Source: Bacteroidota bacterium
GTDB taxonomy: Bacteria > Bacteroidota > Bacteroidia > Flavobacteriales_D > Crocinitomicaceae
Reading direction: 5' to 3'
Assembly: GCA_006227105.1 (NCBI GenBank)
Contig: SBFR01000062.1
Coordinates: forward strand, 1 to 33,848
DNA length: 33,848 bases
Shown here: positions 9,989-24,277 of the stretch, piece after piece
Layout: every line of letters begins with the position of its first letter
How positions within the stretch are numbered: the stretch's first letter is position 1
The notes under the pieces: generated by a model
The model's input: only the letters and a program-made list of their open reading frames with translations
The model's database searches: none
What the model was told of the DNA's origin: nothing
Position numbers and translations under genes: made by a program

Positions 9989-10993
9989 ATGACAGTTTAC
10001 CAGGAAATATTTGATGAAATTCAAAAAGCAAATAAGATCGTAATAACCTCACACCGATCTCCCGACGGAGATTCTATAGGTTCATCGATGGGCTTATATC
10101 AATTCATCTGTAAACTTGGTAAAACGGTTCATGTTGTTCATCCTGATAAAGCTCCAGGATTTTTACATTGGGTTCAGGATGTTCACCAGATCGAGATCTA
10201 TGACGAGGAGAAAGAAAAAGCTGCTGAGTTAATTACCGGTGCTGATCTTCTGTTTTCTTTGGATTACAATGCGCCAGATCGAGTTGGGCCAGAAATGGAA
10301 ATCTTCTTGAGAACTTCAAAAGCGAGAAAGATCGTGATCGATCACCATTTAAATCCGGATATTGAATTTTATGATATTGTATTTTCCGATACCTATACTG
10401 GTTCGACTTCTGAATTGATCTTCAGGTTGATCGAAGGTTGCGGAAAATTGGATTTGTTGGATTCAGCCGTTGGTACACCATTGTATTTGGGAATCATGAC
10501 TGACACCGGATCCTTCAGATTTCCGTCGGTAAGTCCTGAAACACATGAAACGCTTGCCAAATTGATGAGAGCTGGAGTGAAGCACTATGAGGTTCACGAG
10601 CAGGTTTTTGATACCAATACGCTTGATCGATTGAAATTAAGAGGCTTTGCGACGAGCGAAAAGATCGAAGTGATCCAGGATCTCCCCGTTGCGTTTATAT
10701 CGCTTACATCAGAGGAACTAAATAAATTCAATTACGAAAAAGGGGACACCGAAGGACTGGTCAACATGGCTCTTTCTATTCAAGGTATAAAAATGGCGGC
10801 GCTTTTTTCTGAAAAGGATGGAGTGATCAAAATTTCATTGAGATCTAAAGGAGAACAGATCGTTAATGTTATGGCAAGAGACCTTTTCGATGGTGGAGGG
10901 CATAAATATGCGTCTGGGGGAATTTATTACGGAAGCCTTAATGAAGCCGTTTCTCTATTTAAAAGTAATCTATCAAAATACTGGAATTCATGA
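9989..10993 (+). CDS. DHH-family phosphoesterase, NrnA/MgpA type (oligoribonuclease / pAp phosphatase)
   Basis: The 334-residue protein carries the DHH-domain motifs for two metal ions: SHRSPDGDSIGSS (H22, D26, D28), LDYNAPDR, and the signature DHH at 118-120. The C-terminal DHHA1 domain holds GGGHKYASGG. This is the layout of NrnA/MgpA proteins, which degrade short RNA oligonucleotides and dephosphorylate 3'-phosphoadenosine 5'-phosphate; some relatives cleave cyclic-dinucleotide products such as pGpG or pApA. Which activity dominates here cannot be read from sequence. Its stop overlaps the start of the GldI-like gene by 4 nt. A DHH gene beside gldI is, as I recall, common in flavobacteria. 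Confidence 0.88.
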   Translation: MTVYQEIFDEIQKANKIVITSHRSPDGDSIGSSMGLYQFICKLGKTVHVVHPDKAPGFLHWVQDVHQIEIYDEEKEKAAELITGADLLFSLDYNAPDRVGPEMEIFLRTSKARKIVIDHHLNPDIEFYDIVFSDTYTGSTSELIFRLIEGCGKLDLLDSAVGTPLYLGIMTDTGSFRFPSVSPETHETLAKLMRAGVKHYEVHEQVFDTNTLDRLKLRGFATSEKIEVIQDLPVAFISLTSEELNKFNYEKGDTEGLVNMALSIQGIKMAALFSEKDGVIKISLRSKGEQIVNVMARDLFDGGGHKYASGGIYYGSLNEAVSLFKSNLSKYWNS

Positions 10994-11505
10994 AATTGAT
11001 TCTTGGGTTTTTAGCTGCTTTTGTCCTGTTTTCGTGCGGAAATGGAGAGGAGAATGATCCAAAGAAAGTAGAATGGAATAGTGAGAAGTCCACTACCATG
11101 AACAAGAATCTGGCGGTCGAAGAACAATTACAGATCAAACTTTATTTGGAGCGACACAAGGATTGGAAAATGAAATCTTCGGGCACAGGACTTCAATACT
11201 ACATTTATGAGGAAACAGAAGGTGATTCGGCACTTATAGGTCAGGTGGCGCAAGTAGAATTGAAAATTTCCCTTCTTGACGATACTGAAGTGTATAAAAC
11301 GGCAGAAGATGAGGTGAATGAGTTTGTGATTGATAGAACGGATATTGAGTCAGGTATTCATGAAGGGATTAAAAAAATGAAAGTGGGAGAAAAGGCTAAG
11401 CTAATTATCCCTAGTCACCTCGCACATGGACTTATCGGGGATCTGGATAAAGTCCCGCCGTTATCTGTTTTGATCGTTGATATTCACTTGGTTAAACTTA
11501 AATAA
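10990..11505 (+). CDS. FKBP-type peptidyl-prolyl isomerase lipoprotein, GldI-like
   Basis: A 171-residue lipoprotein (AAFVLFSC, lipidated Cys16). The C-terminal domain, about 75-171, has the FKBP pattern: ESGIHEGIKKMKVGEKAKLIIPSH, then LAHG and a closing IVDIHLVKL strand. The spacer before it and the sequence SHLAHGLIGDLDKVPPL resemble GldI, the prolyl isomerase needed for gliding and T9SS function in Flavobacterium. Several active-site aromatics of human FKBP12 are not obvious, so catalytic activity is uncertain. It is translationally coupled to the DHH gene (ATGA) and to the next FKBP gene (TAATG). I leave the symbol blank because GldI and generic FKBP lipoproteins are hard to separate by eye. 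Confidence 0.78.
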   Translation: MKLILGFLAAFVLFSCGNGEENDPKKVEWNSEKSTTMNKNLAVEEQLQIKLYLERHKDWKMKSSGTGLQYYIYEETEGDSALIGQVAQVELKISLLDDTEVYKTAEDEVNEFVIDRTDIESGIHEGIKKMKVGEKAKLIIPSHLAHGLIGDLDKVPPLSVLIVDIHLVKLK

Positions 11506-14644: not shown

Positions 14645-15841
14645 ATGCGTGGTAAACGCATCCTTATTGGTATAACTGGTGGAATAGCGGCGTACAAGAT
14701 CGCATTTCTCATCAGGTTATTAAAAAAATCAGGGGCAGAAGTCAAATGTATAATGACTCCTGCCTCTTGTGATTTTATAAGTCCCCTTGTGGTTTCGACG
14801 TTATCCGGAAATCCTGTCGGTATTGAATTCTGGAACAAGCAAACAGGTGAATGGAGCAATCATGTGGAGTATGGATTGTGGGCTGATTTAATGGTGATCG
14901 CACCGCTAACGGCAAATACGTTGAGTAAAATGGTTTCAGGAGGATGTGATAACCTCTTGTTAGCCTCTTTTTTATCCATGAAAGGACCGGTTATGGTTGC
15001 GCCTGCCATGGATCTCGATATGTACGCTCATCCAACCACACGAAGAAATCTTGATCAGCTCATGAAGGACGGGGTACAAATAATCCCTGCTGAAAGTGGT
15101 GAACTAGCTAGTGGTCTAGAAGGAGAGGGGAGGATGGCCGAACCCGAAACCATTCATGCTAAGATAGAAGAGCATTTCAAAAACAAAGGAAAGCTTATTT
15201 CTAAAAAAGTCTTGATTACTGCTGGGCCAACCTATGAGGCAATTGATCCAGTTCGTTTCATAGGAAACCACTCATCTGGAAAAATGGGTTATGCAATAGC
15301 CCAAGCATTGTTAAATGAAGGTGCCGAGGTTGTGTTGATCTCAGGCCCGACTAATCTTCAGCTCGAACATCCTAGCTTGAAGATCATTAAAGTGACCAGT
15401 GCCGATGATATGTTCATTGAAGTAAAAAAACACTGGTCAGACTCTAATATCGGTGTCTTTTCTGCTGCGGTAGCAGATTACCGTCCTAAAGAAAAAGCTG
15501 ATCATAAGATCAAAAAGAACGATGATGAGCTGAAATTGGAGCTCGTTAAAAATCCGGATATTCTCGAATGGGCGGGATCTCATAAATCATCCGGTCAGTT
15601 TTTAGTAGGTTTCGCTTTGGAAACTGAAAACATGATCGAAAACGGTAGAGCGAAGTTATTGAAGAAGAATCTTGACCTTATCGTAATGAATAATTCAACG
15701 GAAGAGGGAGCAGGCTTTTCAGTTGATACAAATAAAATATCTATCTTAGATGCTAACAATAACTTGACGGTTTTTGAGTTAAAGTCTAAGTCCGAATCGG
15801 CAAAAGATATTGTGAATGTTATAGTAGAAAACTTGAAATGA
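14645..15841 (+). CDS. coaBC: Bifunctional phosphopantothenoylcysteine decarboxylase/phosphopantothenate-cysteine ligase
   Basis: Two steps of coenzyme A synthesis in one 398-residue protein. The N-terminal flavoprotein half (CoaC) begins ILIGITGGIAAYK and keeps the catalytic His73 in NHVEYGLWAD. The C-terminal half (CoaB, from about 188) has VLITAGPTYEAIDPVRFIGN and AAVADYRP, with the ligase KIKK loop. Unusual points in the decarboxylase half: the expected PAMN motif reads PAMD (D123), and the flap Cys (E. coli C158) is Ser156 in ELASGLEGEGRM. Both positions are offset by exactly two from E. coli numbering, so the alignment is firm. I believe relatives in the same phylum share these changes. 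Its stop overlaps porD by 4 nt. Confidence 0.95.
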   Translation: MRGKRILIGITGGIAAYKIAFLIRLLKKSGAEVKCIMTPASCDFISPLVVSTLSGNPVGIEFWNKQTGEWSNHVEYGLWADLMVIAPLTANTLSKMVSGGCDNLLLASFLSMKGPVMVAPAMDLDMYAHPTTRRNLDQLMKDGVQIIPAESGELASGLEGEGRMAEPETIHAKIEEHFKNKGKLISKKVLITAGPTYEAIDPVRFIGNHSSGKMGYAIAQALLNEGAEVVLISGPTNLQLEHPSLKIIKVTSADDMFIEVKKHWSDSNIGVFSAAVADYRPKEKADHKIKKNDDELKLELVKNPDILEWAGSHKSSGQFLVGFALETENMIENGRAKLLKKNLDLIVMNNSTEEGAGFSVDTNKISILDANNNLTVFELKSKSESAKDIVNVIVENLK

Positions 15842-16740
15842 GAATTGTTGTATTATTTCTTTTAAGTCTTGTTATTGGCAGAGGTCATGCCCAGGAATTG
15901 AACTGTCAGGTTAGTATCATTACTGATGCTAGACTGGAAGTTACCTCTGTTGAGAAGGAGATCTTTGATCAGTTGAAGCAAACGATCTATGATCTAATGA
16001 ATACAACTCAATGGACGAAAGATAAATTCAAAGTTGAGGAAAGGATCAATTGCAATATTCAGCTTCAGATCAATGAAATTCCTTCATCTGGAAATTACAA
16101 AGGATCTATTCAGGTTCAGTCTTCTAGACCAGCATTTAATTCGTCCTACAATACGACCATTTTCAATTTTCAGGACGATGATGTACAGTTTTCATACAGT
16201 AGAAATGCCGTTCTTGTTTATGCTCCGAATCAATACAGAGACAATCTGACTTCAATCCTGGCATTCTATGCTTATTTCATTATTGGGATGGATTATGACA
16301 CCTTTTCATTGAAAGGAGGGACTCCATATTTTACTGAAGCGCAAAACATCGTTTCGAATGCTCAAGTTTCACCTCTAGCCGGTTGGAAATCCAATGAAGC
16401 CGGAAAACGAAATCGCTTTTACCTCGTTGATAATATTCTTCATCAACTGTTTGAGCCACTTAGAGAATGTAGCTATGAATATCACCGCAAAGGCGTGGAT
16501 ATGCTTTACGATGATAAAATTGCAGGTCGTCAAGCCATTTTTGATGCTCTTTCTAAATTGAATAAAGTAGCAGCTACTCGTCCCAATTCTGTGAATACAT
16601 TGAATTTCGTTCAGGCGAAAAGAGATGAGATCAAGAGCTTATATTCTGATGCAGAATTGAAGGATAAAAATGAAATGGTGAATCTGTTAAAGAGGATTGA
16701 CCCAGCTAACGCTTCAAGGTATCAGGAAATTCTAAACTGA
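15838..16740 (+). CDS. porD: PorD-family (DUF4835) type IX secretion-associated protein
   Basis: The 300-residue protein has a signal peptide (about 1-18, ending GHAQ) and matches the DUF4835/PorD family of Bacteroidota: ELNCQVSI at the mature N-terminus, YKGSIQVQSSRPAFNSSYNT, a DNLTSILAFYAYFIIGMDYDTF segment and GKRNRFYLVDNILHQLFEPLRE. Family members are linked to the type IX secretion system, though the molecular role is unclear. It is a periplasmic protein. It is coupled to coaBC by ATGA and to recN by a one-base stop/start overlap (TGATG). The coaBC-porD-recN order is standard in flavobacteria. Confidence 0.87.
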   Translation: MRIVVLFLLSLVIGRGHAQELNCQVSIITDARLEVTSVEKEIFDQLKQTIYDLMNTTQWTKDKFKVEERINCNIQLQINEIPSSGNYKGSIQVQSSRPAFNSSYNTTIFNFQDDDVQFSYSRNAVLVYAPNQYRDNLTSILAFYAYFIIGMDYDTFSLKGGTPYFTEAQNIVSNAQVSPLAGWKSNEAGKRNRFYLVDNILHQLFEPLRECSYEYHRKGVDMLYDDKIAGRQAIFDALSKLNKVAATRPNSVNTLNFVQAKRDEIKSLYSDAELKDKNEMVNLLKRIDPANASRYQEILN

Positions 16741-19327: not shown

Positions 19328-19352
19328 AAAAGGGGCATTAAGCCCCTTTCTT
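19328..19352. terminator. Bidirectional intrinsic terminator
   Basis: AAAGGGGC (19329-19336) pairs with GCCCCTTT (19342-19349) around a 5-base loop, with A-rich sequence before and T-rich after. It lies between convergent genes ending at 19327 and 19370 and can serve both. Confidence 0.85.
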
Positions 19353-19369: not shown

Positions 19370-20659
19370 TTAGTCGGTAACTGTTACGGTACCACGATAT
19401 TCATTTCTTTCTCCAGGAAGCGGATTCTTGATCACCACTTTCCATGCAAATGGAGTATATCTTTTTACTTGTTGTCCATTTCGTTTGTCAGTACCATCCC
19501 ATCCTTGAGTTGCATCCGACGATTCGAAGATTACTGCTCCATTCGCAGCATCTACAATAATTAATGTGAATTCAACATCACGAACTGTCAGCGCAAATGG
19601 CATAAAGCTGGTGTTCTCGCCAATTGATGAATTCGGACGGATCGCATTTGCGGCTAATAAATTATAATCTTCTTCGATAGTAACCTTACGAGCAACACTG
19701 CTTTTACAGCCATTTGAACCTGTTACTTCATGAACGATGTTGTAATTGCCTTTTTCGAAAAGGTTGAACTCGGCATTTTTACCTTCTCTTATAATTCCAT
19801 TGATTGACCAATTGTAATTTGAGCCAGTTGAACCAGATTCTACTCTTACAACAGGGACACCATTGTCAAACGTATTTGCCTCAACAATTGAGAATTCTGC
19901 ATTCGGTCCCTCAAGTACTTTGAACGAGTCTCCTTCAATGAAATCTGCACCCTTCATCACGCCTATTTTATACGTTCCTGCCTCATCTCCAATAAATGTC
20001 AAAGAAGATTTAGGCTTAATCGTTGTAATTAATCCATTCGCCTGGATCAACGTAATTGGTGCTTCATTTTTGTTTTGAATCTTCACTGATTCTCCAAGAC
20101 AAATATTTTCAATCTTAGGGATTGAAATTTGACTCGGTGAATTCGAAGCTTGCTGTGTAGTAGAAGAATTATTTCTTTGGTTGTCAGCAGTATTGTTTGC
20201 ATTGCTGTTTGAACCATTTTGTGTCGTAGTATTGGTGCTTCCAGAATTTTGTGAAGTACTTGATGTATTTTGATTGCTTGAGCCACTATTCTGGGCTGTC
20301 ACATCATTCAGGTCAATTTGAACGAATTCGTTGTTTTGAACACCTTTAACATCAGTACCTGTGTTATTGTCAACTGAATGATTCGGTTGATTTTTAGAAT
20401 CATTAGAGTTCGTTTCTGTAGTCTGTGAAACAGAAGGTGTAACTTTTTGCTCCTCTGAATTGTTTGAAAGAAGTATAGCGCTGATAGATACAGCAGCAAT
20501 AACCGCAGCTCCACCAAGATACCACTTCAGATTAGAAGCAGGTTTGGTAGGCATCACCTGATCCAGACGTTTACTCATCTGATCCCAGGCTGCTGCATCG
20601 TAAGGCATTTCATGTCCTTCGACGCTTTTCTTTATTATTTCTTCAATATTCATTTTCAT
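19370..20659 (-). CDS. Probable transmembrane anti-sigma factor with PKD-like and CHU_C-like C-terminal domains
   Basis: A 429-residue protein in four parts. Residues 1-45 are a short cytoplasmic region (IIKKSVEGHEMPYDAAAWDQM) like that before the membrane helix in many Bacteroidota anti-sigma proteins. One transmembrane helix follows at about 46-65 (WYLGGAAVIAAVSISAILL). Next is a linker (about 68-185) almost entirely Asn, Ser, Thr and Gln. After that come a PKD-like segment (about 255-325, SNYNWSINGIIREGK to KSSVARKV) and a C-terminal domain (about 340-429, FTLIIVDAANGAVIFES, QGWDGTDKRNG, YRGTVTVTD) resembling the gliding-motility/T9SS type B (CHU_C) domain. It begins 1 nt after the ECF sigma gene, the classic sigma/anti-sigma arrangement. 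The anti-sigma role is inferred from context and topology. Confidence 0.68.
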   Translation of the reverse strand: MKMNIEEIIKKSVEGHEMPYDAAAWDQMSKRLDQVMPTKPASNLKWYLGGAAVIAAVSISAILLSNNSEEQKVTPSVSQTTETNSNDSKNQPNHSVDNNTGTDVKGVQNNEFVQIDLNDVTAQNSGSSNQNTSSTSQNSGSTNTTTQNGSNSNANNTADNQRNNSSTTQQASNSPSQISIPKIENICLGESVKIQNKNEAPITLIQANGLITTIKPKSSLTFIGDEAGTYKIGVMKGADFIEGDSFKVLEGPNAEFSIVEANTFDNGVPVVRVESGSTGSNYNWSINGIIREGKNAEFNLFEKGNYNIVHEVTGSNGCKSSVARKVTIEEDYNLLAANAIRPNSSIGENTSFMPFALTVRDVEFTLIIVDAANGAVIFESSDATQGWDGTDKRNGQQVKRYTPFAWKVVIKNPLPGERNEYRGTVTVTD

Positions 20660-20660
20660 T

Positions 20661-21230
20661 TTATCGAATATTCATGAATTTATCACTCAACATTTTTTGA
20701 AGATTCATTTTAGCTTTGGCGAGATTGGATTTCGAGGTACCTTCACTGATCCCAAGAATTTCTGCAATCTCTTTATGAGAGTATTCTTCCAATACGTATA
20801 GATTGAAAACAGCGCGATAAGCAGGTGATAACTTCTGGATAGCTTCCATTGCTATTTCTGCTTTGATATCCGTGATTTCCAACTCTTCACGCATTTCTAT
20901 CTCATCCTCGGCGCCAAGTTTAAAATCATTGTCGTTGTCGGTGAGATAGGGGTCCTTTTTCGATTTTCTGATAGAATCAATTGCTGTGTTTGCAATGATC
21001 CTTCTAATCCAACCTTCAAATGACCCTTTATAGTCAAATGCTCCCAATTTTTCAAAGACCTTAATGAAACCTTCCTGTAAAACTTCCTGGGCAGTATCCC
21101 TGTCGTTCATGTATCGCATGCAAACCACAAGCATCTTACCGTAGAAATGCCGGAACAACTCTTCTTGTGCACGTCGCTCGTTACGCAGACAGCCTTCAAT
21201 GATCAATTTGAGTTTTTCCTTATTCTCCAC
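20661..21230 (-). CDS. ECF-type RNA polymerase sigma factor
   Basis: A 189-residue sigma-70 family protein with only regions 2 and 4, as in ECF sigma factors. Region 2 (about 20-90) includes MRYMNDRDTAQEVLQEGFIK and SFEGWIRRIIANTAIDSIRK. Region 4 (about 130-180) has LSPAYRAVFNLYVLEEYSH and the helix-turn-helix KEIAEILGISEGTSKSNL. The start codon is GTG at 21230: no in-frame ATG exists between it and the upstream stop, and the first internal Met is too late. Transcribed with the downstream probable anti-sigma gene (1 nt gap), it should respond to an envelope signal. A possible ECF-type promoter lies just upstream. Confidence 0.93.
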   Translation of the reverse strand: MENKEKLKLIIEGCLRNERRAQEELFRHFYGKMLVVCMRYMNDRDTAQEVLQEGFIKVFEKLGAFDYKGSFEGWIRRIIANTAIDSIRKSKKDPYLTDNDNDFKLGAEDEIEMREELEITDIKAEIAMEAIQKLSPAYRAVFNLYVLEEYSHKEIAEILGISEGTSKSNLAKAKMNLQKMLSDKFMNIR

Positions 21231-21247: not shown

Positions 21248-21270
21248 GACGCTAGGTTTTTGGGCGGGTT
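21248..21270 (-). promoter_or_regulatory. Possible ECF-type autoregulatory promoter (AACC-N15-CGTC)
   Basis: On the minus strand AACC (21270-21267) is followed after 15 bases by CGTC (21251-21248), about 17 bases before the GTG start of the sigma gene. AAC near -35 and CGTC near -10 are typical of ECF sigma promoters, and no TAnnTTTG box is seen here. Confidence 0.3.
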
Positions 21271-21392
21271 GCCTTTTGACGAAAAATATTCAAAAAATCC
21301 CGATAATATTGGACAAAATAAACGAATAATTTTTCAAAATGATTAATTTCGTCAACGAACAAAATCGAATTAACAGAAATAAATTAAATAAA

Positions 21393-22459: not shown

Positions 22460-24277
22460 ATGAAAAGAAATTTACTTCTTATTTCATTCATTCTTTTTGG
22501 AGCATATTCTTTTGCACAGGAAGAAATAGACAATGATCAAATTACATTCAGACGTGGAGAATTCCTTGGAATTAGTATTCCTTTAAAGGATCTGCCGACA
22601 GCAGATGATTCCGGCGATAAAGAAATGGCGAAGGATCATCAGATTCGAGAAAGCCGCAAAAGACCTGAAGCAGTGAACCAAGATGCTTTACCGGCAGGAA
22701 TGGATCCGATTCGTCAGGAATCTTTTGGTACGACTCCTTTAAAAGCACCGATAAAAAACTGGGATGGACAAACAGGTGCATTTCCACCGGATCCTTCAGG
22801 AGCAGCTGGACCAAACCATTACGTACAAGCAGTCAATTCAAAGTATAGAGTTTATGATAAAAACGGTACTGCTGTTACCAGCTCGCTAAATTTGAGCTCA
22901 CTTTGGGCAGGGAGTAGCAATGATGGTGATCCGATCGTATTATACGACAGACATGCTGATCGCTGGGTGATCACTCAATTCCAGATCTCAGGAAATAAGA
23001 TTTTGTTTGCTGTTTCTACAACTCCAGATCCAACTGGTACTTATTACACGTACTCGTTTACAATGCCAACGTTCCCAGATTACCCGAAATTTTCAATCTG
23101 GGCAGACGGTTACTACATGACTTCAAATACAGGACAGAAAAACCTGGCAGCATTCCAGCGCGAAAAGATGTTGGTTGGTGATCCTACAGCTGCTATGGTT
23201 GGATTGAATTATAATTATTCTTCTCATTATGGTTTTAAATGTATCCTACCTGCAGATGCGGATGGTGCTTTACCTCCATATGGAACACCGCAATACTTCT
23301 TTTATTTCCAAGATGATTCATGGAATGGAGTTTCTCAGGATGTGATCAAAATTCTGAAAATGGAGGTGGATTGGAATACTCCTACAAATAGCTCTGTAAG
23401 TGTTCATCAGACATTGTATCCTACAGCATTTAATTCGGTGTTCACAACCACCTGGAATGACATTGTTCAGAAGAATTCATCTCAGAAACTGGATGCGATT
23501 TCTTCTATATTCACGTTTAGAGCTCAATACATCAGATGGAGTGACTACAATACAGTAATGTTATGTCATGTAACAGATATAGATAATAACAACACTGGAG
23601 GTATCCGTTGGTATGAATTAAGAGAAGATCAGTCGACTGGACAGTTTTCAATCTATCAGGAAGGAACCTATGCTCCAGCAGATGGAGATAGCCGTTTTGT
23701 GGGAAGTATCGCTATGGATATGAATGGAAGCATTGGTTTGGCATATTCAATCTCAGGACCTAATTCATTTCCTAGTTTAGGTTATACGGGAAGGTTCCCA
23801 TGGCAGCCACTAGGTCAAATGTGGGCTCAGGAAACAATTGCAGTGTCTGGAGTGAGTGCGCAATCAGGAGGAAACCGATTTGGAGATTATTCTCACATGT
23901 CTCTTGATCCAAATGGAACTACATTCTGGTTTACAGGAGAATATATTGGAACAAGTGGAAGTAGAAGAACGAGAATTTTCTCCTTTGAAGTTCAAGATTT
24001 CTTGGGTACACCACAGACTCAGCTGAATGAATCAGAAATGGTTGCTTATGTAAATAATGGAGATCTTAACGTTGAATTGAAAAATGTTCAGTTCGATGCG
24101 AATGTTGAGGTCGAATTATTTGAAATGAATGGTCGTTCTATCCGTAAAGGAAGTGGAAAGATCATGGGAGGAATGATGAAGTATGTTTTTGATGTAAACG
24201 ATCTGCCTGCAGCGACTTACCTTGTAAGAGTTGGCAATCATGACGCGCAGAGAGTACAAAAGATCATCATTCAGTAA
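22460..24277 (+). CDS. T9SS-secreted protein with type A C-terminal sorting domain
   Basis: A 605-residue exported protein with a signal peptide (about 1-19, ending YSFAQ). The mature part has WDGQTGAFPPDPSGAAGPNHYVQAVN and SSNDGDPIVLYDRHADRWVITQF, with later blocks such as WYELRED and GGNRFGDYSHMSLDP. The repeated strand pattern suggests a large beta-propeller; this family is widespread in Bacteroidota without an assigned activity. The last 80 residues are a T9SS type A domain: VEVELFEMNGRSIRKGSG, LPAATYLVRVG and the terminal KIIIQ. It should therefore cross the outer membrane through T9SS and be attached to the surface or released. It has its own transcription unit between two terminators. 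Confidence 0.85.
   Translation: MKRNLLLISFILFGAYSFAQEEIDNDQITFRRGEFLGISIPLKDLPTADDSGDKEMAKDHQIRESRKRPEAVNQDALPAGMDPIRQESFGTTPLKAPIKNWDGQTGAFPPDPSGAAGPNHYVQAVNSKYRVYDKNGTAVTSSLNLSSLWAGSSNDGDPIVLYDRHADRWVITQFQISGNKILFAVSTTPDPTGTYYTYSFTMPTFPDYPKFSIWADGYYMTSNTGQKNLAAFQREKMLVGDPTAAMVGLNYNYSSHYGFKCILPADADGALPPYGTPQYFFYFQDDSWNGVSQDVIKILKMEVDWNTPTNSSVSVHQTLYPTAFNSVFTTTWNDIVQKNSSQKLDAISSIFTFRAQYIRWSDYNTVMLCHVTDIDNNNTGGIRWYELREDQSTGQFSIYQEGTYAPADGDSRFVGSIAMDMNGSIGLAYSISGPNSFPSLGYTGRFPWQPLGQMWAQETIAVSGVSAQSGGNRFGDYSHMSLDPNGTTFWFTGEYIGTSGSRRTRIFSFEVQDFLGTPQTQLNESEMVAYVNNGDLNVELKNVQFDANVEVELFEMNGRSIRKGSGKIMGGMMKYVFDVNDLPAATYLVRVGNHDAQRVQKIIIQ

Follow-up and report, generated by a model that had tools for sequence, protein, structure and literature searches.

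A conserved ECF sigma factor gene of Crocinitomicaceae paired with an anti-sigma-type protein bearing a type B sorting-like domain: a possible switch for type IX-secreted adhesins

This study concerns a gene pair on contig SBFR01000062.1 (GenBank assembly GCA_006227105.1), a 33,848-bp stretch of DNA, hereafter called the window, from a bacterium of the family Crocinitomicaceae, phylum Bacteroidota. The pair encodes an extracytoplasmic function (ECF) sigma factor and a membrane protein of anti-sigma type, whose outer end is a CHU_C domain resembling the sorting domains of type B substrates of the type IX secretion system (T9SS). Comparative analysis indicates that this sigma factor is very probably linked to type B cargo, and the pair may sense the state of the route by which such cargo leaves the cell.

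Gene pair and domain architecture

The features of the locus are listed in Table 1. The product of the first gene matched Sigma70_r4_2 (9.4e-18), Sigma70_r2 (3.9e-15) and TIGR02937 (9.5e-32) in profile searches, and the presence of Sigma70 regions 2 and 4 only assigns it to the ECF sigma factors. One base separates it from the second gene, which lies directly 3' and has the layout of a membrane anti-sigma factor, with a cytoplasmic N-terminus and one transmembrane (TM) helix. The gene pair, its coordinates and spacing, and the ECF call had been proposed in an initial annotation made from the letters of the window, and all were confirmed.

Table 1. Features of the sigma/anti-sigma locus (window coordinates; aa, amino acids)
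Feature	Position	Strand	Basis or remark
Predicted ECF promoter GGCAAC-N16-CGTC of the sigma/anti-sigma operon	21248..21273	(-)	Conserved upstream motif
ECF sigma factor gene	20661..21230	(-)	GTG start, 189 aa; profile matches, orthologues in alignment A2
Anti-sigma-type membrane protein with CHU_C ectodomain	19370..20659	(-)	429 aa
Residues 1-43, cytoplasmic N-terminus, presumed sigma-binding, invariant W25	20531..20659	(-)	Two predicted helices; function inferred
Residues 44-65, membrane helix	20465..20530	(-)	Structure prediction
Residues 66-180, low-complexity tether, ~120 aa	20120..20464	(-)	Length kept, sequence not
Residues 181-250, Ig/PKD-like module 1, invariant C187	19910..20119	(-)	Alignment and structure prediction
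Residues 251-330, PKD module, invariant C318	19670..19909	(-)	Alignment, Pfam, structure prediction
Residues 331-429, CHU_C (T9SS type B sorting-domain-like), without RWG motif	19373..19669	(-)	Orthologue profile matches
Hairpin AAGGGGC-ATTAA-GCCCCTT	19330..19348	(.)	Between two converging genes; read from sequence

An AlphaFold2 model of the anti-sigma-type protein, made with 35 orthologues, contains helices at residues 5-13 and 22-32, a TM helix at 44-64, a region of low confidence at 62-174, and a confidently predicted all-beta ectodomain from about residue 180 (predicted local distance difference test scores mostly 88-97). No N-terminal signal peptide is present, the TM helix following a 43-residue N-terminus. 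Pfam and TIGRFAM-type profile searches gave no match of this N-terminus to any anti-sigma profile, and a Pfam search of the anti-sigmas gave none to FecR or STN domains. The N-terminus is the sole part that the protein has in common with the short anti-sigmas of the PorP lineages described below.

On its own the window protein has no match to a CHU_C profile, its only hit being PKD_3 with an E-value of 0.06. Among the 35 orthologues, PF13585 (CHU_C) was found in 20 (best 2.8e-16) and TIGR04131 in 15, both at E 0.01 or better, and PKD_4 in 24; a profile of the ectodomain also aligned with the C-terminal tails of giant proteins of ordinary T9SS type, one of them encoded in the same genome (G000:C72, E 1.3e-51). 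The window protein is assigned to CHU_C through these orthologues and through the tails of giants recovered by the ectodomain profile. The initial annotation was right about this domain, which could not be proved from the window sequence alone; its order of TM helix, linker and CHU_C also stood, while the single PKD-like part it described is in fact two Ig/PKD-type modules (about residues 181-250 and 251-330). A fold search of the Protein Data Bank returned only strings of Ig-like domains, the best being GhpA of Aureispira; according to PMC12618676, no structure of a type B C-terminal domain (CTD) has been solved.

Conservation of the pair

The two genes are adjacent in all 43 genomes first examined (47 loci, including 4 duplicates, in nine families of the order). 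In titled genome records, found independently by scanning a genome collection with an alignment of the sigma factor, the gene after the sigma encodes an anti-sigma longer than 340 aa at 76 of 80 loci, and three of the remaining four are cut off by a contig end. Judged from this recurrence, the adjacency is not due to chance, and the domain order beside this ECF gene, whose conservation the initial annotation had left to be surveyed, holds across many families. The titles of these records include Fluviicola chungangensis (L117), Taishania pollutisoli (L118), Brumimicrobium (L126, L128, L131) and Lishizhenia tianjinensis (L129). A malate dehydrogenase gene (mdh) lies divergently upstream of the pair at 45 of the 47 loci, and the locus is therefore considered old and stably kept.

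Alignment A1 shows no variation at W25 of the N-terminus, at C187 and C318 of the Ig/PKD modules, or at L334, P354, W387, G389 and W406 of CHU_C. The tether, counted from the TM helix to the first cysteine, measures 99-155 aa (median 119) and is variable in sequence. Against a sister species of 93% identity, the ratio of nonsynonymous to synonymous differences (pN/pS) is 0.33 for the tether and 0.04-0.09 for the three outer domains, figures that are rough owing to the few substitutions. Taken at sequence level, the ectodomain is strongly constrained and the tether is constrained in length alone.

Co-occurrence of the pair with T9SS was considered as a further test and rejected, since SprA is present in 288 of 296 genomes and the comparison has no discriminating power. 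Pairs of the Crocinitomicaceae/Fluviicola type also occur in records titled Glaciecola amylolytica (L104, CP034120.1), Candidatus Kuenenia, Polynucleobacter and Chryseobacterium (L074, L090, L086), titles or bins that are probably mislabelled or contaminated.

Promoter and predicted regulon

The upstream regions of the sigma genes have in common the motif GGCAAC-N16-CGTY, whose 3' end in the window lies 17 bp before the GTG start, so that the leader of the predicted transcript would be very short. This start codon (window 21228-21230) is GTG in most of the genus. The motif occurs once in the window against 0.08 expected matches, and it is exact at 65 of the 80 titled loci and a close variant at 14 more (79 of 80 together). 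Such conservation upstream of the operon suggests the autoregulation typical of ECF sigma factors.

Other sites were surveyed in seven congeneric genomes, with the reversed pattern as control. The counts, 40 sites against 38, were uninformative, and a location test was therefore used instead. Loci are available for 30 of the sites, and 26 of these sites lie between genes and no more than 300 bp upstream of a co-directional gene, compared with 1 of 32 reversed-pattern sites (p 3e-12, or 1e-10 when the sigma factor's own sites are removed). Seven of the 40 sites are those of the sigma operon, and four fall within or abut other genes. At the remaining sites, wherever the downstream operon is complete in the assembly, a CHU_C-tailed protein is encoded within its first three genes (14 of 14, with Pfam confirmation for four), ranging from a stand-alone CHU_C domain of 113 aa to a protein of 3423 aa. 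With 40-51 CHU_C matches per genome, the chance of such an association is about 5% per operon; many of the 14 operons are orthologues or paralogues and therefore do not represent 14 independent events. The other downstream operons run past the end of their contig, mostly inside large genes with Ig/PKD repeats.

The genome from which the window comes has four non-self sites. Two of them precede operons orthologous to sister-species operons with a CHU_C-ended giant, the operon of the third has long regions in common with those, and the comparison gave no clear relation for the fourth (C29). In other genera with a CHU_C anti-sigma, sites lie before genes for CHU_C proteins of 1356 and 1389 aa in genome G214 and of 1036 aa in G035. 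Motif counts in G+C-richer genomes are mostly chance matches (24 sites in G245, with 77 for the control), and the claims on the regulon are confined to the remaining genomes. The gene pair, its domains, the promoter and the positions of the target sites are solid facts of sequence. From them, the sigma factor is predicted to transcribe its own operon and operons of giant CHU_C-tailed adhesins in this genus.

In several operons, the sigma site and the gene of the CHU_C giant are separated by a gene for a small protein, secreted and about 140 aa long, that ends in VYKLKGVNKIIYIxPQExIL (L236 11233-11655 (-), L242 1167-1580 (+), L245 410-832 (-) and L253 2869-3285 (-)); the one checked had no Pfam match. 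The sigma-linked giants seen complete mostly have no adjoining porP gene, and in this they are like the type B cargo termed 'orphan' in F. johnsoniae. Cargo tails far outnumber shuttles in the 2.9-Mb genome G000, which has 43 CHU_C and 18 PorP_SprF matches.

Exchange of CHU_C and PorP/SprF between lineages

Some lineages possess a close relative of the sigma factor and no CHU_C anti-sigma. Their anti-sigma is short, about 210-320 aa, and consists of the same N-terminus, TM helix and tether with nothing beyond. At 6 of the 7 such loci first checked, the next gene encodes a PorP_SprF protein (Pfam E 1e-60 to 1e-67); a profile built from these six found PorP in the same place at 10 of 13 further loci, giving 16 of 20 in total. 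At eight of these loci the porP gene is directly preceded by a sigma site, which is either exact or has its first G replaced by A. In one further lineage (L184, L310-L316) the anti-sigma is fused to a PorP_SprF barrel (Pfam E 6e-12 to 6e-24, six tested), and the next gene codes for a small protein that resembles a lipoprotein and has CHU_C at its end.

PorP/SprF barrels bind type B CTD proteins, as found by pull-down and cross-linking (PMC9143113), and are required for the secretion of these proteins (PMC12618676). The best evidence that contact between CHU_C and PorP matters to the switch is the exchange, by fusion and within operons, of two known binding partners around one sigma factor.

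The presumed sigma-binding motif of the N-terminus, E-x-PY/FN-x-x-x-W...L, is repeated in tandem in some anti-sigmas. It is present in 4-5 copies in the PorP-fused proteins (L184 3644-5539 (-), L310, L311, L313, L315 and L316) and in two copies in some CHU_C anti-sigmas (L031, L045, L047, L037 and L038), and one such protein might hold several sigma factors.

Divergence of the anti-sigma CHU_C domain from cargo

The RWG motif, present in all 20 cargo tails compared, is absent from all 52 anti-sigma CHU_C domains, which argues against their handling as ordinary cargo. A terminal K/R is found in 17 of the 52 anti-sigmas, and the PNGDGxND loop is lost in the family of the window and kept in other families. 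In a tree of CHU_C tails, the cargo, sampled at sigma sites or beside the pair only, is separate from the anti-sigma domains. The SprB CTD of F. johnsoniae is no longer secreted once any single one of five conserved type B motifs is mutated (PMC12618676), although the text of that paper does not reveal whether RWG belongs to the five. The general absence of RWG suggests that the anti-sigma CHU_C domain is a decoy sensor rather than an exported substrate.

Neighbouring genes

The hairpin between the pair and the gene converging on it (Table 1) is a probable shared terminator of both. The PorD gene at 15838-16740 is genuine (NF052317, 3.6e-104), and the GldI-like gene at 10990-11505 falls under the GldI cut-off (85.8 against 157.6 bits). 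The initial annotation had taken the proximity of these two genes as a sign of a T9SS circuit; this argument was dropped, since porD is convergent, its presence at the locus is mainly genus-level synteny, and a motif scan of the window found no sigma site for it. A gene beside mdh, at 22460-24277 (+), is kept in near relatives; its product of 605 aa carries a type A sorting tail of T9SS (Por_Secre_tail, 1.6e-6).

Comparison with known systems

FlgM is a soluble, exported inhibitor carrying the signal of its export system, and sigma28 serves late substrates. The present pair would likewise combine a presumed inhibitor bearing an export-system signal with a sigma factor predicted to serve late substrates, whereas here the presumed inhibitor is membrane-anchored and the signal has diverged. 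The best characterised regulator of T9SS is PorXY-SigP, which acts on machinery genes. In this system of Porphyromonas gingivalis an ECF sigma factor acts on type IX secretion genes, as is predicted of the present one; SigP acts with the response regulator PorX on machinery promoters (PMC4800418), in contrast to the dedicated anti-sigma and predicted cargo targets found here. PorA, a CTD protein, affects the PorXY-SigP pathway (PMC7712824).

Cell-surface signalling of the FecIR type (PMC9249621, PMC11637429) also combines an outer-membrane barrel, an inner-membrane anti-sigma and an ECF sigma factor, but in the present system there is no FecR or STN domain and the barrel is PorP/SprF rather than TonB-dependent. 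An ECF/anti-sigma pair within a T9SS-related regulon is known from the SM6 promoters of F. psychrophilum (THC0290_1774/1773, PMC9723704), whose targets include machinery genes (gldN, porU); it is likened to the present pair by description, not by orthology. Type B cargo and its PorP/SprF shuttles (SprB-SprF of F. johnsoniae, PG1035-PorP of P. gingivalis) are related through the homologous CTD (PF13585/TIGR04131) and the occurrence of PorP/SprF in the same sigma context in other lineages. In contrast to such cargo, the CHU_C domain is here part of an inner-membrane anti-sigma that has no cleavable signal peptide and no RWG. The pair is classed as a variant of the ECF/anti-sigma trans-envelope switch that may work in a FlgM- or FecIR-like manner, and it is a member of neither type. 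A search within the open-licence literature found no paper on a CHU_C or PorP anti-sigma.

Proposed mechanism and alternative explanations

The best explanation for these data, with about an even chance of being correct as a whole, is a trans-envelope switch, made up of an ECF sigma factor and its anti-sigma, that is devoted to the type B surface proteins of T9SS and senses occupancy of their export route. The sigma factor would transcribe its own operon and a small set of giant CHU_C-tailed adhesin operons, and the N-terminal segment of the anti-sigma would hold it at the inner membrane. The tether of about 120 residues, up to about 40 nm when extended, would be long enough to span the periplasm and present the CHU_C-derived domain to the outer-membrane type B route, either a PorP/SprF-like shuttle or the SprA translocon. 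Either of these, when free, would engage this domain, and the sigma factor would be freed by pulling, proteolysis or conformational change; backed-up cargo would outcompete the anti-sigma domain, leaving the sigma factor held. With vacancy releasing the sigma factor and cargo competing, the outcome would be a negative feedback on adhesin synthesis. We infer the binding of the sigma factor, the contact of CHU_C with PorP or SprA, and the sign and mode of release, and the occupancy mechanism itself is a reasoned guess that could fall either way. It is plausible, at slightly under even odds, that a decoy type B domain, borne on a tether spanning the periplasm, detects when the shuttle or translocon is vacant and thereby sets the transcription of type B adhesins, and that sister lineages achieve the same by placing PorP on the anti-sigma or in its operon.

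Several observations weigh against this interpretation. The domain that would make the contact is devoid of RWG and, in the family of the window, of PNGDGxND, so that it may touch the shuttle differently or no longer at all. The site counts alone do not exceed the control, contig ends truncate all four predicted target operons of the genome from which the window comes, and none of the 18 PorP_SprF genes in this genus has an exact sigma site, nor was one found at the PorP genes of three genomes. The orthology of the sigma factors in the PorP lineages is proposed from profile scores, the promoter motif and the N-terminus of the partner, not from a tree, and the sign of the response is a guess.

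The anti-sigma, or a cleaved ectodomain, might alternatively be taken out by T9SS in the manner of FlgM, so that working secretion would remove the inhibitor and turn late cargo genes on. The origin of the domain in an export signal, the predicted targets being substrates of the same system, and the loop kept outside the window's family would all fit. Such export is nevertheless quite unlikely for a TM-anchored protein with no cleavable signal peptide, in which RWG is uniformly missing and the terminal K/R infrequent, given that a mutation in any of five conserved motifs abolishes secretion of the SprB CTD (PMC12618676). A sensor of free cargo comparable to RseA/DegS, in which unexported periplasmic type B cargo would act on the CHU_C/PKD ectodomain directly or via a protease, has the merit that a signal at the level of cargo would close the loop on the predicted targets. 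It leaves the exchange with PorP/SprF unexplained and, if accumulation activated the sigma factor, would produce positive feedback on blocked cargo; this model is considered unlikely.

The ectodomain could also be a recruited beta-sandwich on an ECF system for general envelope stress or ligand sensing that has no connection with secretion. This would fit the large number of CHU_C and PKD domains encoded in these genomes and the divergence of the anti-sigma copy from its cargo counterparts; the predicted regulon of CHU_C operons and the coupling of the same sigma factor to PorP/SprF elsewhere make this, too, improbable. The initial annotation had envisaged a T9SS surveillance circuit, which in its broad form would be a SigP-like regulator of the secretion machinery. 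There is precedent in the ECF control of por genes (PMC4800418) and in the F. psychrophilum ECF/anti-sigma pair, which shares its CGT-box promoter class with gldN and porU (PMC9723704). Yet no resolved site in the seven genomes fronts a recognised machinery gene, the kind of target (porT, porV, porP, ruvA) that a SigP-type regulator controls directly, and porD in the window has no site, so that this version is very unlikely. The proposed link to T9SS is supported by the CHU_C homology, the conserved domain order, and the promoter sites and PorP exchange that connect the sigma factor with type B secretion. By its predicted sites, the sigma factor is tied to type B cargo, and neither to the secretion machinery nor to the nearby porD.

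Significance

The switch with occupancy sensing would bear on a general problem of these bacteria, since, to our knowledge, how T9SS bacteria match the synthesis of giant adhesins to export capacity is an open question. The pair is widespread across families, including the cultured genera Fluviicola, Brumimicrobium, Lishizhenia and Taishania, and with a predicted promoter, regulon and binding partner in hand the question is therefore directly testable. The exchange of CHU_C for PorP is genomic evidence that the contact between the two is itself what is sensed, and with such a switch the cell may make surface proteins only as fast as it can export them.
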